Below are positions 47,115 to 64,000 of a stretch of DNA of 64,000 nt, in pieces. How positions within the stretch are numbered: position 1 is the stretch's first letter; the number at the start of each line of letters is the position of its first letter. Origin of the DNA: Desulfobacteraceae bacterium (GTDB lineage: Bacteria; Desulfobacterota; DSM-4660; Desulfatiglandales; Desulfatiglandaceae); NCBI GenBank assembly GCA_016844935.1, contig JAERTK010000092.1:1-64000 (forward strand), read 5' to 3'. The position numbers and the translations under genes were made by a program. Below the pieces are notes generated by a model. The model ran no database searches, was not told the origin of the DNA, and saw only the letters and a program-made list of their open reading frames with translations.

Positions 47115-48490
47115 TGGAAACAAAAGAATTGACGAAAAGGTGTCATGACCTGAGTTTTGATGCGTGGCCCGAAGAGGTCATTGACCGGGTGAAATACCTT
47201 ACCCTGGACTATCTGGGCGTTGCCGCACGGGGGTCCTTGAGTGAGTCCAGCGCCCCTATCCTGAACTTTGTTTCCAATAGAGGTATGGTCCAGGAAGGGG
47301 CAGTGGTCACAGGGACGGACTTGAAGGCCGATCCCACCTATGCCGCTCTCGCAAACGGGACATTTGCGCACTCCATAGAGCTTGACGATGTGGTCAACGA
47401 GGCATCTCTTCACCCGGCTGTGGTCATCATGTCCTCTGCCCTGGCAGCCTCTCACATTGCCGGAAGTGGTGGCAGGGCGTTTATTGAGGGGATCGTTGTG
47501 GGTTACGAAGCCATGATCCGGTTGGGCTTTGCCCTTGATCCAAAAGCCCATTATGCACAGGGTTTTCACCCCACCGGCACCTGCGGAACCTTTGGGTCAG
47601 CGTTAACGGCTGCGAAGATTCTGGGATTGGATCAGGAGGCTATGACCAACGCCCTGGGAATCGCGGGCAGTCAAGCCGCCGGATCCATGGAATTCTTGTC
47701 GGATGGCTCGTTTACCAAGCGTTTTCACGCGGGTTGGGCCGCCCACAACGGTCTTATTGCGGCCCTTCTTGCCCGTGAAGGTTTCACCGGGCCGGGGACG
47801 ATTATTGAAGGAAAATATGGGTTTTTGAGTTCTTATTCACCCAATTCCGATCCCTCGTCTCTTCTTAAGAACTGGGGTGATCCTTTCAAGGTGATGAAAT
47901 CGAGCATTAAGCCCCATGCCTGCTGCCGCTACAAACAGGGGCCCATAGATGGTATTTTGGAGATAATGCATGAAAACAGCTTGAACCCTTCGGATGTTGA
48001 AGAAGTCAAATTGGGGATTTTGAAAGCGGGATTTCCCATCGTTGCTCATCCGGAAGAATCCAAATACAACCCCAAGTCGATTGTGGACGCGCAGTTCAGT
48101 ATGCCCTTCGGGGCTGCAGTTGCAATCCTACGTGGGAAGGCAACATTGGAAGAGTACACACAAGAAAACATGATGTCCGCTGAAATCAAAAAAATGATGG
48201 AAAAGATACATTGCGTGGAGGACCCGGAACTTGAACGCCATTACCCCAAAAAATGGCCGGCCTCTGTGCGCCTGACAACGAAGGGCGGGCAACAATATCA
48301 TATGAAAATTGAATTCCCTAAAGGTGATCCCGAAAACCCCCTCACGTGGGATGAGCTGATCCACAAATTCAAAAGTCTCATTCCCCCAGTCTTTTCTCAT
48401 GAAAGAGGCGATGAAATTATTCGTTATGTTAGGAAGATAGAATCAGCGAAAGATTTAAAAAGTCTTTCAAGGCTCCTGTCAAAATCTTAA
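47111..48490 (+). CDS. MmgE/PrpD family protein
   Basis: 459 residues, the usual size. Family signatures: 'KYLTLDYLGVAARGS', 'HSIELDDV' with active-site Asp and His, 'HPTGTCGTFGSALTAAKILGL' and 'SIKPHACCRYKQGPIDG'. The family includes 2-methylcitrate dehydratase, cis-aconitate decarboxylase and iminodisuccinate epimerase, all acting on di- or tricarboxylic acids without a metal cluster. No methylcitrate synthase or lyase is nearby, so a methylcitrate-cycle role is not supported. It is coupled to the nitroreductase and lies 59 bases ahead of the first SDH-like complex, suggesting a shared organic-acid pathway. Confidence 0.88.
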   Translation: MMETKELTKRCHDLSFDAWPEEVIDRVKYLTLDYLGVAARGSLSESSAPILNFVSNRGMVQEGAVVTGTDLKADPTYAALANGTFAHSIELDDVVNEASLHPAVVIMSSALAASHIAGSGGRAFIEGIVVGYEAMIRLGFALDPKAHYAQGFHPTGTCGTFGSALTAAKILGLDQEAMTNALGIAGSQAAGSMEFLSDGSFTKRFHAGWAAHNGLIAALLAREGFTGPGTIIEGKYGFLSSYSPNSDPSSLLKNWGDPFKVMKSSIKPHACCRYKQGPIDGILEIMHENSLNPSDVEEVKLGILKAGFPIVAHPEESKYNPKSIVDAQFSMPFGAAVAILRGKATLEEYTQENMMSAEIKKMMEKIHCVEDPELERHYPKKWPASVRLTTKGGQQYHMKIEFPKGDPENPLTWDELIHKFKSLIPPVFSHERGDEIIRYVRKIESAKDLKSLSRLLSKS

Positions 48491-48549
48491 AAAGCTGTAC
48501 TGCATACTCTCCTCAAATGGTGATATGCCGAAACCCTGGGTAAAATTCT

Positions 48550-49344
48550 ATGAATACAGACGTCATAAAATCAAACATTGAGGCAACCCTCATTACATGG
48601 TTGAAGAAGATTCCCGTTATCTCATTTATCGCCGGAACGAGGGGATGGTTTTATCTAATCAGCTGGTCACATCGAATCACCGGTATTCTTCTGGTGATTT
48701 CCCTGTGGGCCTATCTTTATTGTTTTGAAGCAATACAGGCTTCCCAGAAGGGGTTCATTCTGACTTTACTCCTGTGGATACTGGCCATCCCCATGGCCTT
48801 TCACGGGTTCAACGGGGCCAGGCTGATTCTCTATGAGTGTTTCGGGAGCCGGAATGATGATGACATGATCCGATGGGTTTTTGCCCTCTCTTTTTTCTAC
48901 GTGTTCGTATTGGGGATGCTCATGGTGATGGGAAACCAGATGGTATCTCCATTCTTGTACTGGGTGATTATGTTGGCTCAGGCCCTGGCTGTTGCCCATG
49001 GCGTTAAAGCGAGGATATTAAAGAACAGACATTCTGTTTTATGGAAGATGCAGAGAATCAGCGGGTCCTTTCTTCTGATCATGGTACCTGCCTACTTTCT
49101 GTTCATCCCGCTTAACGCAAACCCGGAGATCGAAGCGAATGCCTTAGCCACAGGTATTCAAGGGTTTTTCTTAGTGGTCGTTTATATCCTGCTCCTTATG
49201 AGCGCACTTTTTCATGCCGGGTATGGGGTTTGGTCCGTGTTGAGTGATTATCTCCCTTCCGGAGGTCTAAGGAAAGGACTGGCTGCTCTCGTTACATTAA
49301 TCACATTGATTCTGGCTTGGATCGGCCTGCTTGCAACTTTATAG
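48550..49344 (+). CDS. sdhC: Fused SdhC-SdhD-type cytochrome b anchor (complex 1)
   Basis: 264 residues with about seven transmembrane helices in two halves. The first half repeats the SdhC pattern 'SHRITG...FHGFNGARLILYE' (His 41, His 85) and the second half the SdhD pattern 'MQRISG...LFHAGYGVWSVLSDY' (His 222). Separate genes at 55.5-56.3 kb encode the same two patterns as 132- and 112-residue proteins, so this gene looks like their fusion. The two candidate haem ligands of the E. coli type (His 85, His 222) are kept, but the extra His found in the separate subunits is replaced by Tyr 55 and Tyr 182. It should anchor the flavoprotein and Fe-S subunits encoded next and pass electrons to quinone, probably with one haem. 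Confidence 0.82.
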   Translation: MNTDVIKSNIEATLITWLKKIPVISFIAGTRGWFYLISWSHRITGILLVISLWAYLYCFEAIQASQKGFILTLLLWILAIPMAFHGFNGARLILYECFGSRNDDDMIRWVFALSFFYVFVLGMLMVMGNQMVSPFLYWVIMLAQALAVAHGVKARILKNRHSVLWKMQRISGSFLLIMVPAYFLFIPLNANPEIEANALATGIQGFFLVVVYILLLMSALFHAGYGVWSVLSDYLPSGGLRKGLAALVTLITLILAWIGLLATL

Positions 49345-49376
49345 TATTTGAGAACTGAAAGGAGTTTCCCCGAACA

Positions 49377-51173
49377 ATGGCTCAAAGATTAAAAATTTCT
49401 TCCACACTGCGTTGTGATGTCCTGATTATTGGGGCGGGGGGGGCCGGCCTTCGATGTGCATCTGCCGTATTGGAGAAAAAACCAGACACCCATATCATTG
49501 CCGTTACCAAAGTGGCGAGCCCCCAGAAATCCCACACCCAGACCGCCCAGGGTGGGATGGCCGCCGTGGATCCCCGTGATCCCATGGATAAACCCATCTA
49601 TCATATGTTCGACACCTGGAAAGGTTCTGACTGTATTGCGGATCAGAACATCATTAAAAAGATCGTTGAAGCGGGGTGGGAACAGGCGGTCTGGATGGAA
49701 AACCGCGGCATGCATTTTACGCGCAGGGAGGACGGAAAACTCAATAAAAGGACCTTTGGCGGGCATACGGTGAACTTTGGCGAATCATCCGCTTTCAGGT
49801 GCGTATTCGAGGCCGACCGGACAGGTAAAGGCATCATGGATAATGTGTGGGGTGAGAGCATCAAAGGGGGGACAAAATTCATCAATCAGGCAGTTGTCAC
49901 TGAGCTTCTGATGAAAGGCGACAGGTGTGTGGGAGCGGTCATATTTAAGCAGAAGGAGGGGGAGTTTGTCAGTATCCTGGCCAAGGCAACTGTTTTTGCC
50001 ACAGGCGGCAACGGGCAGGTCTTCAAAGTCACCACAAATTGCCGCCAGAATACAGGGGATGGAAACGCCGTTATTCTTCAGGCCGACCTGCCGTTGATGG
50101 ACCCGGAGGCGATCCAGTTCCACCCCACGGGAATCGTGGGCCCCGGTATTCTTGCCAGTGAGACACTGCGATCCGTCGGGGGTATCCTCCGCAACAGGGA
50201 ATTGGAGCCCTTTATGGAGCATTACGCCCCCAAGATGAAAGAACTGGCGCCCCGGGACCTGGTGGCCCGTGCCATAGAAACGGAGATCCGAGAAGGAAGG
50301 GGTATCCTGAATCCCGATCACAATATTGAACATGTGTGGATCGACCTGAGGCACCTGCCCGATTACGTCCACGATGTGGAGCTACCCGAGGTTTCGGGTT
50401 TCTTTAAGAAGTTTATCAATCTGGATCCCAAAAAGGATCTCTGTCCGGTTCGACCGAGCAACCATTACCAGATGGGTGGGATTCCCACCAACGAAAACGG
50501 GGAAGTTCAGAAAAATCAGCGGGAAACCGTTCCCGGCCTGTTTGCGGTGGGTGAATGTGCGGCAGCCAGTTTTCACGGGTTTAACCGCCTGGGAACAAAC
50601 TCCCTTCTGGAATTGATTACCATGGGAAAATTTGCCGGGGAAAAGATCATAGAAACCCTTGGGGAGGACGTGCCCCATGCCCCTCAGGAAGCGGGAGAAC
50701 GCTCCTTTTCTCTTTTTTCATCGTTTATGGCGGCCGGCGGCAAGGACAACCTCGGGAAAATTCGTGAAGCGATGAGGAATCTCATGACAGAGAAGGTGGG
50801 CGTCTTCCGAACGGAACAAGGCATGACTGATGCCATGGAGGGCTTAAGGGAACTCAAGGAGCGGGCGGATAAGACCGCATTGGCCAGCCGGAGTCTGATC
50901 ATGAACCAGGACCTTATTCAGAGATGGGAGTTGAATAATCTATTGGACAATACCATGGTCATCACAAAAGGGGCCCTGAATAGAAAGGAATCGAGAGGGG
51001 GACACTTCCGGGATGATTTTCCGGTAAGAGATGATACGCTTCACTATCATACCCTGGCCTATAGGACGGCGTTTGGGAATGTTCAATTGGAAAAGCGGCC
51101 TGTTGACATGAGCCTGTATGAGGCAAAAGGCGAGCATTACGAAAAATTCGGGGTCATTGAGCGAAAATACTGA
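49377..51173 (+). CDS. sdhA: Succinate dehydrogenase/fumarate reductase flavoprotein (complex 1)
   Basis: 598 residues. FAD loop 'VLIIGAGGAGLRCASA', His 53 in 'KSHTQTAQGGMAA' for the covalent FAD bond, and active-site motifs 'QFHPTG', 'RDLVARAIETEIREGRG', 'SNHYQMGGIPT' and 'GFNRLGTNSLLE'. The substrate loop normally reading 'TEGCRGEGG' is 'SETLRSVGG', so Thr is Ser and the second Glu is Val. Retained His, Arg and Glu residues support oxidation or reduction of a C4-type dicarboxylate, but the changed loop may mean a substituted substrate. It follows the fused anchor by 32 bases; AAAGGAG precedes the ATG. Confidence 0.9.
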   Translation: MAQRLKISSTLRCDVLIIGAGGAGLRCASAVLEKKPDTHIIAVTKVASPQKSHTQTAQGGMAAVDPRDPMDKPIYHMFDTWKGSDCIADQNIIKKIVEAGWEQAVWMENRGMHFTRREDGKLNKRTFGGHTVNFGESSAFRCVFEADRTGKGIMDNVWGESIKGGTKFINQAVVTELLMKGDRCVGAVIFKQKEGEFVSILAKATVFATGGNGQVFKVTTNCRQNTGDGNAVILQADLPLMDPEAIQFHPTGIVGPGILASETLRSVGGILRNRELEPFMEHYAPKMKELAPRDLVARAIETEIREGRGILNPDHNIEHVWIDLRHLPDYVHDVELPEVSGFFKKFINLDPKKDLCPVRPSNHYQMGGIPTNENGEVQKNQRETVPGLFAVGECAAASFHGFNRLGTNSLLELITMGKFAGEKIIETLGEDVPHAPQEAGERSFSLFSSFMAAGGKDNLGKIREAMRNLMTEKVGVFRTEQGMTDAMEGLRELKERADKTALASRSLIMNQDLIQRWELNNLLDNTMVITKGALNRKESRGGHFRDDFPVRDDTLHYHTLAYRTAFGNVQLEKRPVDMSLYEAKGEHYEKFGVIERKY

Positions 51174-51215
51174 CAGAGGACCCGGGAAATGGTCAACGAA
51201 ATAAAAGGATAATTT

Positions 51216-51938
51216 ATGCAGGAGATATACCATATCACGCTAAATATTACGCGGTATGATCCGGAAAAAAAGAAGACCTGGGTGCAGGAATACCATTTGA
51301 AGGCAGGCAGGATTCTTCGCTTCACGGATCTCTTTCGGAGAATCAACAACGAGCTTGACCCGACCCTGGCCTGGAATTCGTCATGCGAGCATGCCCAGTG
51401 CGGAACCTGCGCGGTTCAGGTCAACGGGAAACCCCTGCTTGCCTGTGAACTTCTGGTTGAAAATGCCGTGGCTCAGTTTGGCACCTCTGTCTTCAAAATC
51501 GAACCCATCACCGCAGCTCCCGTGGTGCGAGACCTGATTGTGGATCTGGAGCAGGCATACGACAGAGTCCACAAAGCAAAGCCCTACATTATCGAAGGGG
51601 CAAAAAAATCGACGGCACAAGATGAGATCCAGATCTTGCCCCGGGATCTGGAACGATACGTGGAGGCGACCCGTTGTATCAACTGTTTTTGCTGTGCCAC
51701 CGCCTGTATCAGCAGTCAGAAAGGGTTTATGGGGCCCAATGCCGTGATGGCCAGCATCATCCGGCTTATGGATCCACGCGAGCAGGCCAAAGAGGAACGA
51801 TTGGATTTACTGTACAGTGAGGAGGGGATTTACCGCTGCCATACATCCAAGGCCTGCTCATTTGTCTGCCCCAAAGAGATTGACGTGGCGCACTTCATTG
51901 CATTGGCAAAAGAAGGCAGGTTCAAGGAGACAGATTAG
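51216..51938 (+). CDS. sdhB: Succinate dehydrogenase/fumarate reductase Fe-S subunit (complex 1)
   Basis: 240 residues carrying three clusters: [2Fe-2S] in 'CEHAQCGTCAVQVNG' with the fourth Cys in 'LLAC', and the [4Fe-4S] and [3Fe-4S] sites in 'CINCFCCATAC' and 'CHTSKACSFVCPK'. It links the flavoprotein to the fused membrane anchor. Gene order anchor-A-B differs from the C-D-B-A order of the second complex. The MBL-fold gene starts 12 bases after its stop. Confidence 0.9.
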   Translation: MQEIYHITLNITRYDPEKKKTWVQEYHLKAGRILRFTDLFRRINNELDPTLAWNSSCEHAQCGTCAVQVNGKPLLACELLVENAVAQFGTSVFKIEPITAAPVVRDLIVDLEQAYDRVHKAKPYIIEGAKKSTAQDEIQILPRDLERYVEATRCINCFCCATACISSQKGFMGPNAVMASIIRLMDPREQAKEERLDLLYSEEGIYRCHTSKACSFVCPKEIDVAHFIALAKEGRFKETD

Positions 51939-52879: not shown

Positions 52880-53563
52880 TCACAAAACCTCTTCTTCAGG
52901 AGATGTCACCTCTCCCACTCTTTTTAGTATGGGGTCCGGCAGCCCTTCATAGAGTTTGAGAAATTTTTTGTTGATCTCCTTGTTCGCATTTTCAAAGAGG
53001 CTCTCTCCACGCGCATTGCATTCCACCATGAAGGGGCCAAAATTTTTCACTTCCAATATCCACATGGCCTGTGCCAGACCGAGTTCTTCCTTCCAGGCGA
53101 CGTCTTTGACCCCTATAATGCCCCTTCCGTAGATGGCGCCAAGGCCATATCCCACTGTGGTTAGGTAAATCGTGTTGTTCTTGGTAAACGTATCTTTATA
53201 TACCTTGCGGGACATTCCGCCTTTTCCGATGACGAATCGGATGTCATAGCGGCTGAGGAATTCAGGCATGTATTTGGCAAAACGAAAACTCGCCGTTGCC
53301 GTCACAGACGGAACATTATAGACGCCGGGCGCGGTTTCGCTTATGGCCGGCGAGCAGTGAAAGGTCGCCCCTCCGAGTGTTCGAGGGTCAATAGGGGGTT
53401 CCATGTTTTTGTCAAAAATCATACTATAGAGGCCTTCCCGTCCAGTAAAGACCAAGCCATTTAAAAATACCGCGTCCCCCAGTTCAAGGGATTCAATATC
53501 ATCACGCGTGGCAGGAAGTGTTATGCTGACTTCACGAATCTCACTTTGGTTTTGTTTTGTCAT
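52880..53563 (-). CDS. Class I fumarase/tartrate-dehydratase beta subunit
   Basis: 227 residues. 'LELGDAVFLNGLVFTGREG', 'FHCSPAI', 'SVTATASFRFAKYMPEFL' and 'RFVIGKGGMSRKVYKDTF' mark the C-terminal swivel domain of oxygen-sensitive hydro-lyases. It works with the alpha subunit, which carries the [4Fe-4S] cluster. Several normally conserved spots are changed (e.g. 'TTSxRMDxYT' reads 'ATASFRFAKYM'), so the substrate might be fumarate or a related unsaturated diacid such as mesaconate. AGGAGT precedes the ATG. The alpha gene is upstream, but a 143-bp element now separates them (164 bases between stop and start; the reconstructed original gap is 15). Confidence 0.87.
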   Translation of the reverse strand: MTKQNQSEIREVSITLPATRDDIESLELGDAVFLNGLVFTGREGLYSMIFDKNMEPPIDPRTLGGATFHCSPAISETAPGVYNVPSVTATASFRFAKYMPEFLSRYDIRFVIGKGGMSRKVYKDTFTKNNTIYLTTVGYGLGAIYGRGIIGVKDVAWKEELGLAQAMWILEVKNFGPFMVECNARGESLFENANKEINKKFLKLYEGLPDPILKRVGEVTSPEEEVL

Positions 53564-53586
53564 CTCTGTACTCCTGTCTTAATCTA

Positions 53587-53729
53587 GTGTCCGTCTACGA
53601 ATGAGAAAATTTGTTCGAGTTCAAGGAAGGCGATGATTGTAACCGCAAGAATACATTTAAGTATTTTGAGGATTACAATTTGAGCCTGACGCAGAAATCG
53701 GGCAAATTGGCCATTTGTGGATGGGCACT
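53587..53729 (+). mobile_element. 143-bp MITE-like element, copy 2
   Basis: Same length and orientation as copy 1 at 75-217, about 90% identical, with inverted ends AGTGTCCGTCTACGAATG and AGTGCCCATCCACAAATG (reverse complement of the right end). It is flanked by the direct repeat AATCTA (53581-53586 and 53730-53735). Removing it together with one repeat restores a sequence in which the fumarase alpha gene ends in GAT-TAA, with its beta gene 15 bases downstream. The present alpha stop (TAG at 53728-53730) is supplied by the element's end. This is direct evidence of insertion into an operon. Confidence 0.85.
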
Positions 53730-54657
53730 AATCTATGGTGTCCCTTCGGTAGTATGGGGTAAACCACCGTGGGTCTTCCCGGTACTCAACGCTATTATCA
53801 GCAAAAAGACGGACCGTTTTTCTTCTATGGGCATAGCAGAACTGCTGGATTCCCACGGGCATGCCGCCGGTGTGGGCATACGCCGCTTCAATATGGATAT
53901 CCAATACCGCGGAGTTCCCGGGAAATCCCATGGGACCAAAGCCCGCGTCATTCCCAAGCGCGATGAGTTCTTCTTCCAGTGCTGCAATTTCCGGATCAGG
54001 ATTCCTATCGCCCAAAAGGCGTAGACAAGCCGCCTCCTTTGAGAGCCGAACGCATACATCTTTTGTGCCGCCTACACCGATTCCGATGACGGCAGGCTGA
54101 CACGACATACCCCTGCGAAGAAATTCGGCCAACGTATCAAGAAAGAACCGTTTCAGCCCTGGAATTCCATCTGAAGGAAACAGCATCCGGTAATCACCCC
54201 CAAAGAGCCCTCCCTTATGGACCACCGTGATATCCATCCAATCCGCATCCGGCTCAAAGCTATAATCGACAGTAGGTGCGTGAAGGCCCACATTGTTGTT
54301 ATGGTCCTTTCTTGAAAAGGGGTGTACGCGATTGGGCCGCAGGGGAATACTGGCTGTGGTGTCCGCCGTTGCCTGTCGAAGCGACTTTTCGAGTTGGACC
54401 ATGCCGCCCTCTATCAGGGCATTATTGCCGATCTTCGCGTAATATCTCGGAAGACCGGTGTCCGCACACATGGGGCTTCGATCTTTGATGGCGGCATCAT
54501 AGTTTTGAAGGATATTTTCCAAAACATATCGGGAGTAATGGTTTTTCTCCTCTGACGCTAACTGCTCAACTTTCTGTTGCACATCTTTCGGGATCTCAAT
54601 GGCTGCCGTTACATTCAGTTCCCGTGCAGCCTCCAATACCGTACCTGCGTTTATCAT
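53728..54657 (-). CDS. Class I fumarase/tartrate-dehydratase alpha subunit
   Basis: 309 residues, an [4Fe-4S] hydro-lyase catalytic subunit. Cluster cysteines are Cys 64 ('CADTGLPRYY'), Cys 186 ('MSCQPAVIGIGVGGTKD') and Cys 274 ('GIQQFCYAHRR'). The usual 'NxxxxHPF'-like region reads 'LRPNRVHPFSRKDHNNNVG'. The family interconverts fumarate and malate or dehydrates tartrate; members also act on mesaconate. It diverges from the GntR regulator gene, so the two promoters share the 178-base gap at 54658-54835. The last codons are intact despite the element insertion at the stop. AAAGGAG precedes the ATG. Confidence 0.9.
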   Translation of the reverse strand: MINAGTVLEAARELNVTAAIEIPKDVQQKVEQLASEEKNHYSRYVLENILQNYDAAIKDRSPMCADTGLPRYYAKIGNNALIEGGMVQLEKSLRQATADTTASIPLRPNRVHPFSRKDHNNNVGLHAPTVDYSFEPDADWMDITVVHKGGLFGGDYRMLFPSDGIPGLKRFFLDTLAEFLRRGMSCQPAVIGIGVGGTKDVCVRLSKEAACLRLLGDRNPDPEIAALEEELIALGNDAGFGPMGFPGNSAVLDIHIEAAYAHTGGMPVGIQQFCYAHRRKTVRLFADNSVEYREDPRWFTPYYRRDTID

Positions 54658-54835: not shown

Positions 54836-55498
54836 ATGGAACGACTTCCAGAACGTACCAACCTTAGGGATCAAATCTATGACATCCTGAAAAGAAGGAT
54901 TGTCTTCCGAGAGATTGAACCAGGGGAGAAGATTAACGAAGAAGACCTGGCAAAGTCATTGGGTGTCAGCAGAACGCCTATCCGGGAAACCCTCCTGCGT
55001 CTGGAGCATGAGGGTATTGTAAAAATCATACCCAGACGCGGTGCATTTGTTGTCTCGCAATCAAAAGCGAAGGTCATGAACCTGTTTGAAGTGCGAGAGG
55101 TGTTGGAAGGGTTGGTTGCGCGGTTGGCCACGGAAAACATGAACCGCGCGCTTTTTGATCGCCTCAAGCGTTCACTGGAAAAAGTCAGCTCCGTGGATGG
55201 CGACAACAATAGACTGCTGAAATATACCCCTGCTGATGTTGAATTTCATGCCTTGCTGTTGGAGGCCTGTGACAATGAACTGCTTACGAATATGATGGAG
55301 AGCGTCAATATCCACCTTCAAATGGTCAGGTTGCGGACCGTCGCGCTTCCCGGAAGACCTGAACAAACTGTTAAAGAACATTATAAAATTTTAGCAGCAA
55401 TTGAGAAAATGGATTCCTCACTGGCGGAAAAGCTGATGAGGAAACATGTGGCAAGCGTGAGAAAAGATGCGCTCAAAAACATGCCGTTAATGAAATAA
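54836..55498 (+). CDS. GntR-family (FadR/FCD) transcriptional regulator
   Basis: 220 residues. The winged-helix part reads 'LRDQIYDILKRRIV', 'KINEEDLAKSLGVSRTPIRETLLRLEHEGIV' (in parts) and the C-terminal FCD ligand domain shows 'EFHALLLEACDNELLTNMM' and 'EHYKILAAIEKMD' with the His/Asp metal residues. FCD regulators commonly bind small organic acids. It is divergent from the fumarase pair and 14 bases ahead of the second SDH-like operon, so it probably controls this module in response to its substrate. The start is ATG 54836 (TTG 54833 also open); Shine-Dalgarno is weak. Confidence 0.9.
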   Translation: MERLPERTNLRDQIYDILKRRIVFREIEPGEKINEEDLAKSLGVSRTPIRETLLRLEHEGIVKIIPRRGAFVVSQSKAKVMNLFEVREVLEGLVARLATENMNRALFDRLKRSLEKVSSVDGDNNRLLKYTPADVEFHALLLEACDNELLTNMMESVNIHLQMVRLRTVALPGRPEQTVKEHYKILAAIEKMDSSLAEKLMRKHVASVRKDALKNMPLMK

Positions 55499-55512
55499 GG
55501 AGGCAGGGCAAT

Positions 55513-55911
55513 ATGATGCATACTGAGATGGCCCGCTTGTCGAAATTCAGCCATAGAAGTCAAATGTGGGACGTAACCGGAATGTGGGCCTTTGTTCTCC
55601 ATCGAATCACCGGCCTTGGTCTTGTGTTCTATATTCTACTGCACACCATCCTCATGGGCGGTTCTCTTTTGTCAGGAAAAGAGGATTTTGATGCGACCCT
55701 ATCGGTACTCATGGGAAATCCTGTTTTCGAAGTGCTCGATATCATGCTGCTTGGAGCGGTACTTTACCACGGTTTCAACGGTATTCGCATATTGCTGTTT
55801 GATTTGGGAATAGGCATTTCGGTCAACAGCCAAAGAAACATATTTCGGATATTCATGGGCGCAGCGGCCATTTTATGGTTTTGGTCCATTGCCCTAAAAT
55901 TCAGTCATTAA
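55513..55911 (+). CDS. sdhC: Succinate dehydrogenase cytochrome b subunit SdhC (complex 2)
   Basis: 132 residues with three transmembrane helices. 'VLHRITGLGLVFYILLHTI' (His 30, His 44) and 'YHGFNGIRILL' (His 86) are the typical SdhC features. His 44 and His 86 could ligate two haems together with His 23 and His 64 of SdhD. AAGGAGG lies before the ATG, and the gene starts 14 bases after gntR, so regulator and complex are probably co-transcribed. Confidence 0.86.
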   Translation: MMHTEMARLSKFSHRSQMWDVTGMWAFVLHRITGLGLVFYILLHTILMGGSLLSGKEDFDATLSVLMGNPVFEVLDIMLLGAVLYHGFNGIRILLFDLGIGISVNSQRNIFRIFMGAAAILWFWSIALKFSH

Positions 55912-55923
55912 GGGGATCAGCAC

Positions 55924-56262
55924 ATGCATGCCTGGACGTGGTTTTTGCAAAGAATCAGCGCCGTTATATTAGTCATTGCCTTGGGATTGCACATCGGATT
56001 TCTTCACTTTAGTAATGCCGGAGAGCCCCTCAATTACAGCGACATCATGGTCCGTCTTAAGACACCGGTTTTCATCTCGCTGGATATCCTGCTGTTGATT
56101 TTCGGCCTTTATCATGCCTTGTACGGCCTATACTCTATTTTCCTCGACTTCGATTCCGGGAAAAAAGAAAAACTTGTTGTGCTCGGACTCCTTGTCGTCA
56201 TGGGATTGGGTTTTGTGGGTTTTGGAATTTTCGGCCTCTTTTACACGATCCGTTCGCTTTAG
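55924..56262 (+). CDS. sdhD: Succinate dehydrogenase membrane anchor SdhD (complex 2)
   Basis: 112 residues, three transmembrane helices. 'FLQRISAVILVIALGLHIGFL' (His 23) and 'LYHALYGLYSIFLDF' (His 64) match the SdhD pattern. Together with SdhC it offers four His in pairs, consistent with a di-haem anchor. It follows sdhC by 12 bases and precedes the Fe-S subunit by 38. Confidence 0.84.
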   Translation: MHAWTWFLQRISAVILVIALGLHIGFLHFSNAGEPLNYSDIMVRLKTPVFISLDILLLIFGLYHALYGLYSIFLDFDSGKKEKLVVLGLLVVMGLGFVGFGIFGLFYTIRSL

Positions 56263-56300
56263 ACCGTTCCCGGGAAAAGTCTATTTCTTGGAGAGAAAAA

Positions 56301-57023
56301 ATGCCAGATCTATTACATGTCAAAGTTTTCCGTTACAACCCTGAGAGCGACATTGCCCCCAAATACGATAATTTTGAAGTGCCTGTTTTCAATAATATGG
56401 CCATACTGGATGTGGTCATGCATATTCAGAACTACATGGACCGCTCTCTCTCTTTCAGGTTTTCCTGCCGTATCGGCATGTGCGGTTCCTGTGCCATGTA
56501 CGTCAACGGAAGGGCCCGGTTGGCCTGCAGGACTCAAGTGTCTGCGCTAAAAACCCAAAACATAACCATTATGCCGCTGCCCAACTTCCCTATCATTCGC
56601 GATCTGGTGGTGGCTATGGCGCCGTTTTTTGAAAAATGGAAGAAAATCAAACCCTATTACCTGCCCAAGAAAGAGATCAGTGAGCCCGTCACTGTCAGAC
56701 CCGATTCAAAAGAACGGGAGTTCATCGATGACATGCTGGATTGTATCAGTTGCGGTTGCTGCTATTCAGCCTGCTCCATGGTGGCCACCAACAAGGAATA
56801 TTTAGGGCCGGCCGCCCTTAACCGAGCCTACACGCTGATTGCTGACAAACGGGACGCGATCCGGGTTGAAAGGTTAAAGGTCGTAGATCGATCATACGGG
56901 GTCTGGCGGTGTCACACACAGTTCAACTGTGCGGAAGCCTGCCCCAAGAACATCGTTCCTACCCGGTCTATTCAAAACTTGAAGCGGCGTTGTGTGCTGA
57001 AAAAATTCGGCATATTTAAATAA
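56301..57023 (+). CDS. sdhB: Succinate dehydrogenase/fumarate reductase Fe-S subunit (complex 2)
   Basis: 240 residues with [2Fe-2S] ligands in 'CRIGMCGSCAMYVNG' and 'LACR' and the two other clusters in 'CISCGCCYSAC' and 'CHTQFNCAEACPK'. It is closer to standard SdhB than the subunit of complex 1. Gene order C-D-B-A, with tight spacing, marks one operon. GGAGAG precedes the ATG. Confidence 0.92.
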   Translation: MPDLLHVKVFRYNPESDIAPKYDNFEVPVFNNMAILDVVMHIQNYMDRSLSFRFSCRIGMCGSCAMYVNGRARLACRTQVSALKTQNITIMPLPNFPIIRDLVVAMAPFFEKWKKIKPYYLPKKEISEPVTVRPDSKEREFIDDMLDCISCGCCYSACSMVATNKEYLGPAALNRAYTLIADKRDAIRVERLKVVDRSYGVWRCHTQFNCAEACPKNIVPTRSIQNLKRRCVLKKFGIFK

Positions 57024-57051
57024 AGGACGCTGGAGAAGGAGTGAACGCATT

Positions 57052-58788
57052 GTGGAAGTCATAAAGACCGACATACTGATCCTTGGTAGTGGTGGCGCAG
57101 GGCTCTTTGCCGCCCTGCGCGCTTACGACAGCAACCCTCGTCTCAAGATCACCATGGCGACCAAGGGATTGATCGGGAAATGTGGATGCAGCAGGATGGT
57201 ACAGGGTGGGCTCAACGTGGTCCTGAATGAAAATGACTCTCTGGAAAAGCATTTTAACGACACCCTTAAGGGCGGAGGATTCATCAATAATCAGGATTTA
57301 GCCTGGACTTTGGTGAGTGAGGCCCCCAAGACGGTTCACGAGCTGGAGGTCAAGGTTGGATGTTTCTTTGACCGGGCTGAGAACGGAAAGATTCATCAGA
57401 AACCCTTTGCAGGCCAATCCTTTGACCGGACGGTGCACGTGGCTGATCTGACAGGGATACAGATCATCAGCCGAATGACCGATCAGATATTTGCCCGGGA
57501 CATCAGGGTATTTGAAGAGACCCGTGGTCTTGATTTGCTACGCTCCAAGGATGGAACGCGAATCGTGGGGGCGGTACTCTCAAATATCAGAACCGGCGAG
57601 ATTTTTGTCGTGAACGCCAAAGTCACCATAGTTGCCACAGGGGGCTGTGCATCCATGTACAAAATCTCAGCCCCATCTTTTGACAAGACCGGTGACGGCA
57701 TGGCCATGTGTTTCAGGGCCGGGGCTGAATTTGTCGATATGGAAATGGTCCAGTTTCACCCAACAGGCCTGATTGCCGGAAAATCCCGACTTAACGGCAG
57801 CCTCCTTGAGGAAGGACTAAGGGGCGCCGGGGCCAGACTCTATAATGGCCAGGGAGAACGGTTTATGAAACAATACGATCCAGAGCGTCGGGAGAGATCG
57901 ACCCGGGATCGGGTGGCGCGGTCCAGCTATATGGAGATCATGGCGGGACGGGGGACAAAGAACAATGCCGTATATATCGATGTGACCCATCTGGGCGCCG
58001 AATTTGTTGAGAAAACATTTCCGGGCATGGTCGAGCGGGTCAAAGACATCGGCAAAGACCTGGCCAGAGAAAAGGTCGAAGTGACCCCCACAGCCCATTA
58101 TCAGATGGGTGGTGTCAGTGTAGGCACAGATTGCCAGTGCAATTTGAAAGGACTCCTGGTGTGCGGAGAAGATGCGGGTGGAACCCATGGTGCCAACCGG
58201 CTCGGGGGTAACGGGATATGTGACTCAACCGTATACGGCCGGAGGGCCGGAGACGTGGCAGCGGCCCTGGCATTGGAAGAAGATTTGCATCCCCATCAGG
58301 ATTCACAGGCTGAAAAGATAAGAATGCGCTGGCTTAAGCCTTTTTTGGGAGGCTCTGGAGGGAATGTTTACGAGATTCGGAATGAGATCGAAGACCTCAT
58401 GTGGGAAAAGGCAGGCCTGGTCCGTAACGGCAACAAACTCATGGAGGCGGCGGATCGGCTGGATGTGCTTTTGGAAGAGATGGGGAATGCCAAAGTGGCA
58501 GACAGATTTCGGGCGCAATACCATATGGAATGGAACAACATCATCGATGTGACCAACCTGATTACCGTATGCAGGATGGTCGTAAATTCGGCGCACTGCA
58601 GGGAGGAGAGCCGGGGTGCCCACTACAGAGATGATTTCCCCGAGACCGATAACGAGGATTGGTTAAAAAACATATATCAGAAAAAAGGGGACGGATTTCA
58701 ACTGGTGGTGACACAAAAACCTGTTGAGCTGAATCGTTTCAAGAGGGAAGAAATAGAAGAAAGGTTTTTTGAGAAAGTGAAGCATTGA
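57052..58788 (+). CDS. sdhA: SDH/fumarate reductase flavoprotein lacking the FAD-linking His (complex 2)
   Basis: 578 residues with GTG start (GGAGAAGGAG upstream). FAD loop 'ILILGSGGAGLFAALRA', active-site 'QFHPTG', 'TRDRVARSSYMEIMAGRG', 'TAHYQMGGVSV' and 'HGANRLGGNGICDS' are present, and the substrate loop keeps 'EEGLRGAG'. At the usual covalent-FAD position (Ser-His-Thr) it reads 'KCGCSRMVQGG', so the His is Cys 46. FAD is probably non-covalent. In known enzymes, loss of the link favours fumarate reduction over succinate oxidation. This 'CSRMVQGG' type also occurs in some actinobacterial SDHs, from memory. Function as reductase, or oxidation of an easier donor, is inference. Confidence 0.9.
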   Translation: MEVIKTDILILGSGGAGLFAALRAYDSNPRLKITMATKGLIGKCGCSRMVQGGLNVVLNENDSLEKHFNDTLKGGGFINNQDLAWTLVSEAPKTVHELEVKVGCFFDRAENGKIHQKPFAGQSFDRTVHVADLTGIQIISRMTDQIFARDIRVFEETRGLDLLRSKDGTRIVGAVLSNIRTGEIFVVNAKVTIVATGGCASMYKISAPSFDKTGDGMAMCFRAGAEFVDMEMVQFHPTGLIAGKSRLNGSLLEEGLRGAGARLYNGQGERFMKQYDPERRERSTRDRVARSSYMEIMAGRGTKNNAVYIDVTHLGAEFVEKTFPGMVERVKDIGKDLAREKVEVTPTAHYQMGGVSVGTDCQCNLKGLLVCGEDAGGTHGANRLGGNGICDSTVYGRRAGDVAAALALEEDLHPHQDSQAEKIRMRWLKPFLGGSGGNVYEIRNEIEDLMWEKAGLVRNGNKLMEAADRLDVLLEEMGNAKVADRFRAQYHMEWNNIIDVTNLITVCRMVVNSAHCREESRGAHYRDDFPETDNEDWLKNIYQKKGDGFQLVVTQKPVELNRFKREEIEERFFEKVKH

Positions 58789-58871
58789 TTAAGGGTCTCG
58801 GCAAAGAATAAATGCACGAGATGTCGGAAGTATTAAATTGACGCAAGACCATGAATGGAGAGTTCTGAATT

Positions 58872-60053
58872 ATGGATTTTCAACTGACCAAAGAGCAAAA
58901 ACAGATTGTCGCCTCCCTTGATGAAGTCGGGAGAGATGTGTTCGCTAAAAAAGCAGCGCGTTGGGATGAGAACCATGAATACCCCTGGGAAAACATCGAG
59001 CAGCTAAAGGAATTGGGCGTTTTGGGAATGACCATCCCTGAAGCTTACGGTGGGCAGGAAAGCCCCCTCATTGACGCGATTTTGGCAATCGAAACCACCG
59101 CAAAATACTGTGGCGTCACCGCCCGTGTGATTGTTGAAACCAATATGGGGGCCCTTGGCTGCGTCATGGCCTACGGCACCGACGAGCAACGCAAGCTTGT
59201 GGCCCGAAGAATTTTGGAAGATGGGGACAAGCCTGCCATCGGTATGACAGAGCCTGAAGCGGGTACCGCCCTGACCGACCTTGCTGCCACCGCAGAAAAA
59301 AAAGGTGACAACTACGTCATCAACGGCACAAAACACTGGATCACCGGCGGCGGCGTATCGGTTTCAAACCTCATCTACGTCCGATTCATCGAGGACGGCA
59401 AGGATCTGGGCATCGGCGGCATATTGGTGGACAAGGGGACCAAAGGGTTTACCTTCGGCACCGTTGAAAAAGCCATGGGTTTAAGGGGGATCCCGGAGAC
59501 CGAACTGATTTTCAACGATTGTATGGTACCTGCCGAAAACGTGGTGGTTAAAGGGGATGGCAACGAAGGCTTTAAAAAACTGATGTACGGATATAACGGA
59601 CAGCGCGTGGGCGCCAGTGCTGTGGCTTTGGGATTGGCCCAGGGGGCGCATGATCTAGCCGTTCAATATATGAAGAAAAGACACGCCTTCAGCCGCCCGA
59701 TTTCTGAATTCCAAGGGCTGCAGTGGATGATGGCGGACGCGGAAATGGAGCTCAACGCCGCCCGACTGCTGATTTACAAAGCGGCCTGCAATGCCAGGGA
59801 CCTGCCCAATAACGTCCGACTGCCCTATATGGATGAAGCCTCAATGGCAAAGGCCTATACCGGCCACGCGGCCCTGGATGTGGTGAGCGAAAGCCTCCAG
59901 ATGTTCGGTGCCGCCGGGTACTCGCAGTCTCTGCCCCTGGAGCGGATGTTCCGGGACGTTCGCATGTTTCAGATCGGTGGCGGCACCACCCAGGCACAGA
60001 AGAATATGATCGCAAGATCCATATTCAACAAGAAATTCAGCTTCCGCAAATAG
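58872..60053 (+). CDS. Acyl-CoA dehydrogenase homologue without catalytic Glu (desulfinase-like)
   Basis: 393 residues of the acyl-CoA dehydrogenase fold: 'LGMTIPEAYGG', 'IGMTEPEAGTALTDL', 'YVINGTKHWITGG' and 'ERMFRDVRMFQI'. The catalytic base is missing: the usual 'YEGT' reads 'GGGT' (Gly 370) and the alternative base position on the neighbouring helix (isovaleryl-CoA type 'LDLERL') is Gln 244 in 'GYNGQRVG'. An Arg (85, in 'GVTARVIVE') sits where dicarboxyl-CoA enzymes bind a distal anion. As I recall, 3-sulfinopropionyl-CoA desulfinase has the same combination (Arg near 84, Gln near 246, no Glu). I propose it removes sulfite from a sulfino-acyl-CoA or acts on a dicarboxyl-CoA. It follows the SDH operon; a terminator comes next. 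Confidence 0.82.
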   Translation: MDFQLTKEQKQIVASLDEVGRDVFAKKAARWDENHEYPWENIEQLKELGVLGMTIPEAYGGQESPLIDAILAIETTAKYCGVTARVIVETNMGALGCVMAYGTDEQRKLVARRILEDGDKPAIGMTEPEAGTALTDLAATAEKKGDNYVINGTKHWITGGGVSVSNLIYVRFIEDGKDLGIGGILVDKGTKGFTFGTVEKAMGLRGIPETELIFNDCMVPAENVVVKGDGNEGFKKLMYGYNGQRVGASAVALGLAQGAHDLAVQYMKKRHAFSRPISEFQGLQWMMADAEMELNAARLLIYKAACNARDLPNNVRLPYMDEASMAKAYTGHAALDVVSESLQMFGAAGYSQSLPLERMFRDVRMFQIGGGTTQAQKNMIARSIFNKKFSFRK

Positions 60054-60078
60054 GCCGGAATAGTACGATTTTTCTCCT

Positions 60079-60110
60079 GGGGATCCGCTTTTTGGGATCC
60101 CCTTTTATTC
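60079..60110 (+). terminator. Strong intrinsic terminator between dehydrogenase and CoA-transferase genes
   Basis: GGGGATCC pairs perfectly with GGATCCCC across the loop GCTTTTTG, followed by TTTTATT. It lies 26 bases after the acyl-CoA dehydrogenase stop and 32 before the CoA-transferase ATG, so the gntR-sdhCDBA-dehydrogenase transcript probably ends or is attenuated here. Confidence 0.8.
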
Positions 60111-60141
60111 ACCTTTTACCATTCACGGGATTTCTAAAAAA

Positions 60142-61359
60142 ATGGAAGGCAAATCTCTACTTAAGAAAATGCGAATTCTCGATTTCACCCGCGTGTTATC
60201 AGGCCCCTTCGCCACCATGATGCTGGGGGACCTGGGTGCGGAGGTAACAAAGATCGAGCCCCCCAACGGGGATGAAAGCCGGTCATGGCCCCCCATATTG
60301 AAGAACGGGGTGAGTGCCTATTTTTTGGCCTTGAACCGGAACAAACAATCCATTGCCCTGAACCTGAAAGAAGAGCGGGCCAGAAATATCGTTTTAAAGC
60401 TGGCGGCAGCGTCAGACGTGGTGGTGGAGAATTTCACACCGGGTGTGGTGGCCAAACTGGGGATCGACTACGAAACCCTTCAAAAGGAAAACCCCCAAAT
60501 CATCTATTGCGCTATTTCCGGGTTCGGCCAGGATGGGCCCTATCGTAACAAAAAGGCCTACGATCCCATTGTTCAGGGAATGACGGGATTGATGTCCATC
60601 ACCGGAGAGCGAAACGGCCCACCGGCCAAAATCGGCATCCCCATTACAGATCTTACGGCGGCCTCCCATGCGGTGACCGCCATTTTAGCCGCCTATATAT
60701 CCCGACTTGAAACCGGAAAAGGGCAATATATCGATATCTCGCTCTATGACGGCGTTATCAGCTGGCTGACCATCATGGCCATGGATTATTTTGCCACCGG
60801 GAAAGCGCCGGAGCGCTGGGGGCTGGACCATATTCACCGGGTCCCTGCCAGGGCTTTCATGGCTTCCGACGGACGCTGGGTTCAGGTGGCGGCCACCAGC
60901 GATCCCATGTATTCCAAGTTTTGCCAGGTTCTGGGGCTTGAAGAACTCATCGACGATCCGCGGTTTGCCACCAATAATGACCGGCTTCAGCATCGCCATG
61001 AAATCATGCCCTTTTTTGAAGGGAAGATCAAAGAGAAAACCAGCCAGGAGTGGCTACGGCTGTTAGAGGAGGCCGGCATTCCCTGCGGGCCAATCCTTGA
61101 CATGGATGAAGTTTTCGCCGCCCCCCATATAAAGGCCCGTGACATGATGTTTACCATGCCGCATCCTGTGGAAGAAGAGATTCCCCAGCTGGGGTTTCCA
61201 TACAAGTTCTCAGAAGCGTCACCATCGGCAAGGCTTCGGCCGCCACTGTTGGGAGAACACACGGATATGATTCTCAACCAGCGATTGGGTATGGACAGGG
61301 AGGAAATCAGAAAGCTGGTTGAGGAAAAGGTGGTTACCGCGCCGGCTGAAAAAAAGTAA
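60142..61359 (+). CDS. Class III CoA-transferase (CaiB/BaiF family)
   Basis: 405 residues. Signatures: 'RVLSGPFATMMLGDLGAEVTKIE', 'ALNRNKQSIALNL', 'VVVENFTPGVVAKLG', 'ISGFGQDGPY', the catalytic Asp 170 in 'GIPITDLTAAS', and 'GKGQYIDISLYDGV'. Class III enzymes move CoA between carboxylic acids, often from succinyl-CoA. In Variovorax and Advenella (from memory) one such enzyme activates 3-sulfinopropionate beside its desulfinase; others activate glutarate, benzylsuccinate or methyl-branched acids. Position after the odd dehydrogenase and before a TRAP transporter fits an uptake-activation-conversion order. The Shine-Dalgarno is weak. Confidence 0.9.
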   Translation: MEGKSLLKKMRILDFTRVLSGPFATMMLGDLGAEVTKIEPPNGDESRSWPPILKNGVSAYFLALNRNKQSIALNLKEERARNIVLKLAAASDVVVENFTPGVVAKLGIDYETLQKENPQIIYCAISGFGQDGPYRNKKAYDPIVQGMTGLMSITGERNGPPAKIGIPITDLTAASHAVTAILAAYISRLETGKGQYIDISLYDGVISWLTIMAMDYFATGKAPERWGLDHIHRVPARAFMASDGRWVQVAATSDPMYSKFCQVLGLEELIDDPRFATNNDRLQHRHEIMPFFEGKIKEKTSQEWLRLLEEAGIPCGPILDMDEVFAAPHIKARDMMFTMPHPVEEEIPQLGFPYKFSEASPSARLRPPLLGEHTDMILNQRLGMDREEIRKLVEEKVVTAPAEKK

Positions 61360-61362
61360 AAA

Positions 61363-61392
61363 TTGACTTCAGAATTTATTACATGATACAAA
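61363..61392 (+). promoter_or_regulatory. Possible promoter of the TAXI TRAP genes
   Basis: TTGACT and TACAAA at 18-bp spacing lie just after the CoA-transferase stop, about 145 bases before the binding-protein gene, in an AT-rich gap of 179 bases. The -35 is near-consensus and the -10 is poor. Confidence 0.3.
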
Positions 61393-61538
61393 ATTTTTTT
61401 ATCTTTATCTATTCTTGATCCAGGTGGAACCCGTTTACATGGGAATGGTTTAATATGGGGAGGGAGGTGGTACTTACAGATATCGATCGTTAGGGACACT
61501 AAGATTCAAATCATGCACAAAACAATAAGGAGATAAAA

Positions 61539-62633
61539 ATGAAAAAACTCAGGTTGGCATTGATTTTAGGATTGGCTGTGCTGTTGTTATCGGTATTTGT
61601 TTTGCCAGGCCCCGCGGCGGCAGGCGATAAAAAAATGTGGAGATGGGGGACGGCTAATCCAAGTGGTTACGGTTATAGAGTATCCGCTTTCATGGCGGAT
61701 TTCTTGCGAAGGGGCATGCCGGATTACGACATTACCGTTTACCCGTTCGCTAACACCACCGCTAATATCAAGAACTTCTTAGTGGGTGACCTCGAAACTG
61801 CATACGTAGCCGAGCCGGGATTTAGAAAATTATACGCGTTTATTAAGCCATTTAAGGGCTTTGAACCCAATGTAAAGCAGATGCCGGTGCAGTCCTTCTG
61901 GGCCTACACCATGGAAACCCATATTCTGACGTTACCGAAGAACAAAGATAAATTTAAGTCCTGGAAAGATTTGGACGGCAAGAAAATCTACATGACGAAG
62001 TCGGGATACATGAACAATATCAACATCCACAGAGCCATGGAAGATATCAATGGCCTGGATGTCACCCACGTGGAAGTTGATGCCACAAAGGTCGCGAGTG
62101 CTCTGAAAGCGGGAACCATAGACGCCACGGCAGCCTACACAACGTCTTTGGTGGCATTGGCCAGCTGGATTAAGGTGCTTGATGTGGCCAGCCCCCTGCT
62201 GGGAGTGAACCCGACGCCTGACCAAATCGAGAAGCTAAAGGCGGCGGGTTTTGCGCCGGAAAAGATCAACATCAAGAAGGCGTACACGAGAGATCTGGGC
62301 GTGGATGAACTCTATGGCGTGCCTTTTTACTTTGGTTACCACGCCGGGCTCAATTTTTCGACCGAAGCTGTTTATAAATCGCTCAAAGTATTTGAAGCCA
62401 ATACGGCTGCACTGCTTAAGCTGGACCCCGGTTTCGGACCACTGGCCGCAGACTTCGCCGGATTCCAGGTTAAGGGGATCAACAGCATACCCGAGGTTCC
62501 GGTACATCCCGGATTGGCGAAATTCCTGAAGGAGAAGGGCTTATGGAACTCAGCCTGGGTCATAGCTGATGAAGGGACGGTGGCCATGGCCATAGAGAAA
62601 ATGAAAGCTCAAGTTAAAGCCAAAGCTAAATAA
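61539..62633 (+). CDS. TAXI-type TRAP transporter solute-binding protein
   Basis: 364 residues with signal peptide ('ALILGLAVLLLSVFVLPGPAAA', cleavage about residue 28). The mature part begins 'RWGTANPSGYGYRVSAFMADFL' (in parts) and has 'MKKL'-type start, 'GDLETAYVAEP', 'DVTHVEVDATKVASALKAG' and 'FGYHAGLNFSTEAVY', matching TAXI receptors of TRAP transporters. These work with a fused 4TM-12TM permease and usually carry organic acids in symport with Na+. AGGAGAT precedes the ATG. Ligand cannot be predicted; the neighbourhood suggests a di- or sulfino-carboxylate. Confidence 0.85.
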   Translation: MKKLRLALILGLAVLLLSVFVLPGPAAAGDKKMWRWGTANPSGYGYRVSAFMADFLRRGMPDYDITVYPFANTTANIKNFLVGDLETAYVAEPGFRKLYAFIKPFKGFEPNVKQMPVQSFWAYTMETHILTLPKNKDKFKSWKDLDGKKIYMTKSGYMNNINIHRAMEDINGLDVTHVEVDATKVASALKAGTIDATAAYTTSLVALASWIKVLDVASPLLGVNPTPDQIEKLKAAGFAPEKINIKKAYTRDLGVDELYGVPFYFGYHAGLNFSTEAVYKSLKVFEANTAALLKLDPGFGPLAADFAGFQVKGINSIPEVPVHPGLAKFLKEKGLWNSAWVIADEGTVAMAIEKMKAQVKAKAK

Positions 62634-62685
62634 AGCACGCTGAACTTCTTTTTGGGAAACGAGAAGGTAGTTAGGGCTTTATGAT

Positions 62686-62730
62686 AGTGGGCTTACCCCT
62701 TATGAAATATCAATATGGGGTAAGTTCACT
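62686..62730 (+). promoter_or_regulatory. Stem-loop between TRAP receptor and permease genes
   Basis: CTTACCCC pairs perfectly with GGGGTAAG, extended by outer AGTG/CACT, around a loop of about 17 AT-rich bases and followed by CTTTTT. It may partly terminate transcription or protect the upstream message, giving more receptor than permease. Confidence 0.5.
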
Positions 62731-62765
62731 CTTTTTATGTCATACCGTCAGGAAGGGGTTAACAG

Positions 62766-64000
62766 ATGGGAAATGATCCGGTGCCGGGTGGAGAAAATCC
62801 TTTGACCGAAATGCGCAAATTCTTCGTCCCCTGCTATCTAATAGCAACGATCGTATATTTAGCTTTTTCGCTGCATTATTTCACGACCGGATTGGGCGGA
62901 ACAATGCTCCTTGCCGTAACCGTCGTTCCACTGGCATACGTGTTATGGGTCTTGAATTCCTTTGTAACCGGAGTGCTGCCATATCCACGTCTGGGCCTTA
63001 AACCCAATATTGTCTTAGCCTGCCTGTACATCGGGATGTGCATATATTGCTCAATATACTTGAGAGTGAACTTTGACGCCCTCATTTACGACAGAGCGGG
63101 TTTCTATAACACCGCTGACAAAATTGTAGCAGTGATGACACTCGGTCTAATTCTCGAATATACCCGACGGGAACATGGTTTACTCTTCTATCTCATCTTG
63201 TTTCTCATGTTTTATTCCGTTTACGGGTTTATTTTCCCGGGCATGCTCGGTCATCCCGGCGTCTCATGGACAAGGGTCATCACCTCTTCTTCCGTTGAGA
63301 TCACATTGGGTCTGTTTGGCACTTATTCGCAAACCGGCGTCGGTATTATCGCGGCTTTTTTTATATTTTTGGGTGTTGCCCAAGGGTTTGGTGTTCAGGA
63401 ATCTATTGTCAAAACGTTCACCGGGATATTTGCAAAACGTAGAAACCTTATTCCCCAGACGGCGGTGGTGACTTCCATGGCCATTGCCACCTGCAGTGGA
63501 TCGGGAGCGGCCAATGCGGCCATAACCGGGCAGTACACCATACCGTTGATGAAAAAAGCAGGGTTTCCCGCTCTACACGCCGGTGCTGTGGAAGCGTCTT
63601 CTTCACTGGGGGGCTTGCTCATGCCGCCCGTCATGGCAATAGCCGGTTTCCTCATGGCTGACTTTTTGGGAGTGACTTATTTCGAGGTTATCGCGCGAGG
63701 ATGGGCACCGGCGCTCATTTTCTTTGGTATCATATCCCTGTCGGTTTACCTCTTCACAACGCGCTTTATACGGGGAAAGGGAAGCAAAACAGATTTAGAA
63801 GCGGAATCCGTTATCGAAAAATTTTCCCGAATGGACGTGCTCAATACAGCGGTCTTCTTTGTCTTCATAGGGATTTTGGTCTATTTGATGGGTGTGCTTT
63901 GGTATGAAGCATCAAGAGCCGCACTCATGATTGCCATGGGTCTCTTTGTCACCTCGTCCATACTCCGCATAATTTTCCATCCTGGGACGATTTTAGATAA
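62766..64000 (+). CDS. TRAP transporter fused permease (TAXI type), partial at window end
   Basis: The frame is open from ATG 62766 (AAGGGG upstream) to the end of the window, 411 codons, so the C-terminus is missing. The N-terminal part has four hydrophobic helices (about 17-130, the DctQ-like part), and the rest matches the large DctM-like part: 'VTSMAIATCSGSGAANAAIT', 'YTIPLMKKAGFPA' and 'EASSSLGGLLMPPVMAIAGF' are hallmark TRAP loops. It forms the membrane channel for the TAXI receptor encoded 132 bases upstream. Full family members are about 600-700 residues, so roughly a third is missing. Confidence 0.9.
   Translation, partial: MGNDPVPGGENPLTEMRKFFVPCYLIATIVYLAFSLHYFTTGLGGTMLLAVTVVPLAYVLWVLNSFVTGVLPYPRLGLKPNIVLACLYIGMCIYCSIYLRVNFDALIYDRAGFYNTADKIVAVMTLGLILEYTRREHGLLFYLILFLMFYSVYGFIFPGMLGHPGVSWTRVITSSSVEITLGLFGTYSQTGVGIIAAFFIFLGVAQGFGVQESIVKTFTGIFAKRRNLIPQTAVVTSMAIATCSGSGAANAAITGQYTIPLMKKAGFPALHAGAVEASSSLGGLLMPPVMAIAGFLMADFLGVTYFEVIARGWAPALIFFGIISLSVYLFTTRFIRGKGSKTDLEAESVIEKFSRMDVLNTAVFFVFIGILVYLMGVLWYEASRAALMIAMGLFVTSSILRIIFHPGTILD

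Follow-up and report, generated by a model that had tools for sequence, protein, structure and literature searches.

Desulfinases with the fold of AcdDPN7, the enzyme of Advenella mimigardefordensis (PDB 5AF7/5AHS; EC 3.13.1.4), have been characterized in aerobic betaproteobacteria growing on thiodipropionates and dithiodipropionates, and to our knowledge a sulfinate-stripping desulfinase has so far been described only from oxygen-using bacteria. Schurmann et al. are said to have found in 2015 that positions 246 and 366 of AcdDPN7 are the two sites where dehydrogenases bear their base, and that Arg84 is essential at the sulfinate, the exchange Arg84Lys reportedly killing activity. Here we analyze a gene, acd (58872 to 60053, plus strand), that encodes a 393-aa protein of the acyl-coenzyme A (acyl-CoA) dehydrogenase fold in a 64,000-nt stretch of contig JAERTK010000092.1 from a Desulfobacteraceae bacterium (GCA_016844935.1); this whole stretch is the window, to which all coordinates refer unless stated otherwise. 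The protein resembles AcdDPN7 in fold and length, in three diagnostic residues (Arg, Gln, and Gly; the R/Q/G triad), in the flanking motifs YNxQRxGA and RMFxIxGGTxQ, and in having a neighboring class III CoA-transferase. We consider it likely that acd encodes a sulfino-acyl-CoA desulfinase, acting most probably on 3-sulfinopropionyl-CoA (3SP-CoA) within the pathway proposed below, because AcdDPN7 is its best relative in both sequence and fold, and because of the triad, a clade supported at 100/100, the linkage to the CoA-transferase, and the presence of dsrABD in the genome. The same evidence favors a preliminary description of this DNA, which had suggested that a sulfate reducer might here combine a desulfinase with a class III CoA-transferase, although the cut-off of the curated desulfinase model NF042439 is not reached.

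In the MAFFT alignment, Arg85 (codon at 59124 to 59126, plus strand), Gln244 (59601 to 59603, plus strand), and Gly370 (59979 to 59981, plus strand) correspond to Arg84, Gln246, and Gly366 of AcdDPN7. Gln244 occupies the position of the catalytic Glu of isovaleryl-CoA dehydrogenase and Gly370 that of Glu376 of medium-chain acyl-CoA dehydrogenase, and neither known dehydrogenase base position carries Glu or Asp, exactly as the preliminary description had read the sequence. The triad is common to 31 of 31 members of the desulfinase clade and to five plasmid-borne relatives, including a desulfinase-type protein of Cupriavidus necator N-1 that we take to be experimentally active, and it occurs in none of the other acyl-CoA dehydrogenases of the host genome within the alignment; shared by the whole clade and absent from the aligned paralogues, it is not a chance combination. 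Among all solved structures, the closest by sequence was AcdDPN7 (5af7/5ahs, 343 bits), followed by butyryl-CoA dehydrogenases (261 bits). An AlphaFold2 model built from 24 homologues (predicted local distance difference test score, 92; predicted template modeling score, 0.92) placed three AcdDPN7 chains at the top of a Foldseek search (E value, 1.4e-37; root mean square deviation, 1.6 to 1.8), with all other structures at 5e-29 or worse. Alignment and model thus both bear out the likeness to AcdDPN7 that had been drawn beforehand.

In a maximum-likelihood tree of 59 proteins, the acd product grouped with AcdDPN7 and apart from the dehydrogenases, in a desulfinase clade of 31 rows (support, 100/100) whose stem measures 1.11 changes per site; a firm place among true dehydrogenases, which the preliminary description had named as the outcome that would speak against it, was not what the tree returned. 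Within this clade, the protein belongs to a sub-branch of seven (100/99), together with five other delta-type proteins (L009 to L013; 77 to 92% identical to it) and one protein from a Chloroflexi metagenome-assembled genome (MAG; L014, 70% identical). This window branch is mostly anaerobic, comprising six Desulfobacterota-type genomes and the Chloroflexi one, and is separate from the aerobic branch, to which its members are 42 to 52% identical (about 42% for AcdDPN7). The window protein also does without the PQTRxGY-like C-terminal tail of the aerobic branch. On NF042439, an equivalog model with a cut-off of 600 bits, the tested members of the window branch scored 480 to 491 bits, the aerobic branch 637 to 671 bits, and the paralogues of the host genome at most 309 bits. 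Rather than a certified member of the desulfinase family, the window protein is therefore part of a sister subfamily that very probably works like one. What appears to be new here is an anaerobic, deep-branching desulfinase lineage in cells that also have sulfite reductase.

Directly 3' of acd lies the gene of a class III (CaiB/BaiF) CoA-transferase (60142 to 61359, plus strand; 405 aa, with Asp170 in the catalytic-Asp motif). The same arrangement is found in all six delta-type genomes of the window branch, where the pair is full-length and kept together and where the L009 to L013 copies of the transferase are 63 to 82% identical to that of the window, in line with the pairing that the preliminary description had given for such desulfinases. 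A CoA-transferase also stands beside acd in aerobic loci (L022, L023, L034, L037, Mesorhizobium, Diaphorobacter, Paraburkholderia, and Cupriavidus). In the anaerobic branch, PrpR-type sigma-54 activators adjoin the acd-transferase pair at L009:5367-7382 and L013:8293-10242. In the Chloroflexi MAG, which has dsrA, the desulfinase-like gene (L014:8001-9182) has no adjacent CoA-transferase and lies beside family 5 solute-binding proteins. Downstream of the transferase, the window continues with a TAXI-family TRAP substrate-binding protein (61539 to 62633, plus strand; 60 bits on TIGR02122, under the cut-off of 84) and a fused TRAP permease of 658 aa (TIGR02123), whose reading frame starts at 62766 on the plus strand, passes the window end at 64000, and stops at position 64742 of the 67751-base contig.

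These genes can be assembled into a pathway in which the TAXI-TRAP transporter would import 3-sulfinopropionate (3SP) or a close anion, the class III CoA-transferase would move CoA from succinyl-CoA to the sulfinate, and the desulfinase would, by analogy to AcdDPN7, hold the sulfinate with Arg85 and, having no known dehydrogenase base, cleave the C-S bond to yield propionyl-CoA and sulfite with no net redox change. Elimination of the sulfino group as sulfite, in an overall reaction that differs from dehydrogenation, has been described for the desulfinase, which lacks the Glu (AGG motif; PMC8360864). Propionyl-CoA would return to succinyl-CoA through methylmalonyl-CoA mutase, for which the host genome has a gene; the succinate left by CoA transfer would be oxidized by the adjoining succinate dehydrogenase (SDH) and fumarase; and the sulfite would be reduced by DsrAB. 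Indeed, the genome contains dsrA (567 bits; cut-off, 393), dsrB, and dsrD, the last of which indicates a Dsr of the reductive type. Above the same cut-off, dsrA was found in the genomes of L009, L011, L012, L013, and L014, whereas the L010 MAG gave no such match. Sulfite feeding Dsr would agree with this co-occurrence but is not proved by it, since the lineages of the window branch are mostly sulfate reducers anyway. It is tempting to speculate, though we hold this wider idea only tentatively, that some sulfate-reducing Desulfobacterota and a Chloroflexi lineage carry out a sulfinate respiration, in which the sulfinate is imported, CoA activated, and split so that propionyl-CoA serves as food and sulfite as an electron acceptor that costs no ATP for sulfate activation.

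Upstream of acd lies an SDH operon (SdhC-SdhD-SdhB-SdhA; 55513 to 58788, plus strand) with the usual SdhA active-site motifs, and farther upstream, divergent from the regulator gene described below, lie the beta and alpha subunits of a class I fumarase (52880 to 54657, minus strand). Three genomes of this family without acd (G005, G006, and G035) have SdhCDBA orthologues at 82 to 84%, and neither a fumarase nor a GntR gene is near the operon in these relatives. The SDH is therefore an ordinary one, and it is in this organism that the genes of the regulator, fumarase, acd product, transferase, and transporter came together around it. The preliminary description had proposed that succinate from CoA transfer feeds the SDH and fumarase; the genes do adjoin, but the SDH is not specific to the module, and the idea that SDH and fumarase are parts dedicated to the desulfinase is weakened accordingly. 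We also considered sulfur analogues of succinate and malate as substrates of the two enzymes, and dropped this because the SdhA active-site motifs are unaltered. In Rhodobacterales, related SdhA proteins occur in 47 of 293 genomes, most of them as part of SdhBA-FumAB cassettes that are not near acd. The acd and SdhA match lists nevertheless share 18 genomes where about 5 would be expected (hypergeometric probability, 2e-9 to 1e-6, with shared ancestry ignored), an association that exceeds chance. Independently of the window, acd has SdhB-SdhA and fumarase genes as neighbors in the Rhodobacterales loci L022, L036, L161, L201, and L202, and this repeated adjacency fits a succinate-yielding route. 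In L201, L202, L206, and L210, also from Rhodobacterales, SdhB-SdhA-FumA-FumB cassettes hold a class III CoA-transferase between both fumarase subunits.

Several observations weigh against the desulfinase assignment. The window protein itself scores 486.6 bits on NF042439, 17 positions are fixed differently in the window and aerobic branches, so that the specificity of the former may have shifted, and the experimentally tested enzymes all fall outside the window branch. The CoA-transferase is 40 to 43% identical to transferases of aerobic desulfinase loci and about 45% identical to unlinked ones; because it is no closer to the desulfinase-linked homologues, its sequence does not predict the acceptor, and the transferase of the window branch was possibly recruited independently of the aerobic loci. 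For the TAXI binding protein, no solved relative was found. A terminator-like, GC-rich hairpin followed by TTTTATT (60079 to 60102, plus strand) separates acd from the CoA-transferase; such sites are not in excess over shuffled sequence in this region. The SDH operon is kept by relatives without the desulfinase, making the SDH link weaker than first proposed, and no thiol dioxygenase was found in the host genome, so that the cell would depend on an external supply of 3SP.

Part of this evidence would suit a desulfinase-like enzyme that lacks the base, binds an anion through Arg85, and works without redox change on some other substrate, be it another sulfino- or sulfo-acyl-CoA or, in a decarboxylation or hydrolysis, a dicarboxylyl-CoA. 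The distinct branch with its fixed differences, limited identity, and score under the cut-off, the different C terminus, a CoA-transferase that is not specially Act-like, and a linked transporter that varies across the branch (TAXI-TRAP in the window, a Liv-type ABC system in L013) are all in its favor. We nevertheless regard such a substrate as unlikely, given that all three diagnostic residues and most residues around them are kept, that both branches pair the gene alike with a class III CoA-transferase, and that a sulfite product agrees with the presence of dsr in almost every genome of the branch, although dsr also belongs to the usual lifestyle of these lineages. An ordinary dicarboxylyl-CoA dehydrogenase of the glutaryl-, methylsuccinyl-, or benzylsuccinyl-CoA type with an unrecognized catalytic base would have a fold identical in kind, and the 25 acyl-CoA dehydrogenase matches in the genome, as well as the class III CoA-transferases and SDH that such pathways also have, could be explained in this way. 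Yet Glu and Asp are missing at both known base positions, outside of which the acidic residues specific to the branch fall; the tree sets the protein apart from the dehydrogenases with full support; and a genuine glutaryl-CoA dehydrogenase is encoded separately (NF045552, 767 bits; cut-off, 470), which together leave a dehydrogenase very improbable. Finally, the patchy occurrence of acd, carried by 1 of 46 genomes of the family and 1 of 395 sampled genomes of the phylum (with the four best candidates per genome scored), might point to a horizontally acquired passenger without a working role in its host. We give this hardly any credence, since the reading frame is intact, the acd-transferase pair has stayed together in six genomes of the branch, and regulator, fumarase, and transporter are gathered around acd.

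If the desulfinase acts on 3SP-CoA, the source of 3SP becomes of interest. A dioxygenase of the CDO_I family was found in 0 of 25 genomes, the host genome included, as is expected for an anaerobe, and a 3-mercaptopropionate (3MP) dioxygenase route in this organism was rejected on that ground. The 24 other desulfinase-bearing genomes without CDO_I (cysteine/3MP dioxygenase; L009 to L037) include aerobes, although CDO_I is present in plasmid-borne loci of other species; for most carriers, the sulfinate must come by another way. We know of no documentation of an anaerobic oxidation of 3MP to 3SP. PMC11905757 reports, after Kiene and Taylor 1988, that 3MP occurs in sediments.

Compared with the AcdDPN7 system, the acd system of the window has no 3MP dioxygenase, an anaerobic host with dsrABD, and a TRAP transporter in place of TTT-type binding proteins. 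The aerobic loci of Cupriavidus necator N-1, Variovorax paradoxus TBEA6, Mesorhizobium, and Rhodobacterales share the acd and CoA-transferase genes with the window, and some of them also have TAXI-TRAP or SDH-fumarase genes nearby, but unlike the window they carry cysteine dioxygenase, LysR regulators, propionyl-CoA carboxylase, or sulfite/sulfate exporters (PMC6370202). Organosulfonate respiration through the isethionate sulfite-lyase IslA in Bilophila and Desulfovibrio likewise involves an anaerobe, a sulfite acceptor from an organic sulfur acid, and TRAP importers (PMC11668362, PMC6386719); IslA, however, is a glycyl-radical lyase acting on the free sulfonate, whereas the window enzyme has a flavoprotein fold and is proposed to act on a CoA-activated sulfinate. 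Our literature search found no paper linking 3-sulfinopropionate with sulfate-reducing bacteria. The intact, deep-branching desulfinase relative, with genes for CoA activation and import beside it, suggests that these bacteria may have a sulfur food source as yet undescribed for them. Conservation of such an anaerobic branch in genomes that bear dsr would be a sign that anoxic sediment holds a natural pool of sulfinate and that an organosulfur route to sulfite exists besides the sulfonate lyases. If sulfinate respiration holds true, aerobes would export or oxidize as waste the same sulfite from which anaerobes, using the same enzyme family, gain an electron acceptor.

The remaining gene of the locus encodes a GntR/FCD regulator (54836 to 55498, plus strand). 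The gene set and coordinates of the 9-kb run in the preliminary description (regulator, SDH, acd, CoA-transferase, TAXI protein, and TRAP permease) proved accurate. Gaps between the genes measure 28 bp (sdhB-sdhA), 83 bp (sdhA-acd), and 88 bp (acd-CoA-transferase), followed by 179 bp and 132 bp. The gene order of a single run stands, but a shared single transcript is not certain, as the hairpin in the acd-transferase gap may split the run into two transcripts. The SDH orthologues within the family also rule out a contaminant contig. At 47111 to 51938, the window encodes an MmgE/PrpD-family protein and, after it, a second complex that resembles SDH or fumarate reductase (cytochrome b type, flavoprotein, and iron-sulfur subunit).

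In Rhodobacterales, acd is carried by 39 of 391 genomes, in several of which TAXI-TRAP genes are near it. Among the aerobic loci, MutAB, the methylmalonyl-CoA mutase subunits, directly follow acd in L016; in Mesorhizobium, its neighbors are a sulfate exporter and the two enzymes propionyl-CoA carboxylase and methylmalonyl-CoA mutase; a TauE-type sulfite exporter adjoins it in Sulfitobacter; and cysteine dioxygenase does so in Paraburkholderia and Diaphorobacter. Such product-side genes support propionyl-CoA and sulfite as the products for the family as a whole. In Burkholderiales and Rhodobacterales, we also observed a thiamine-diphosphate enzyme beside acd that is acetolactate synthase-like and under every equivalog cut-off (L034:9236-10873, L036:5096-6724, L037, L170, L171, L173, L176, L185, and L190). 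This enzyme, accompanied in L034 by an aminotransferase, could convert a 2-oxo acid, for example, that of homocysteine sulfinate, into the sulfinate.

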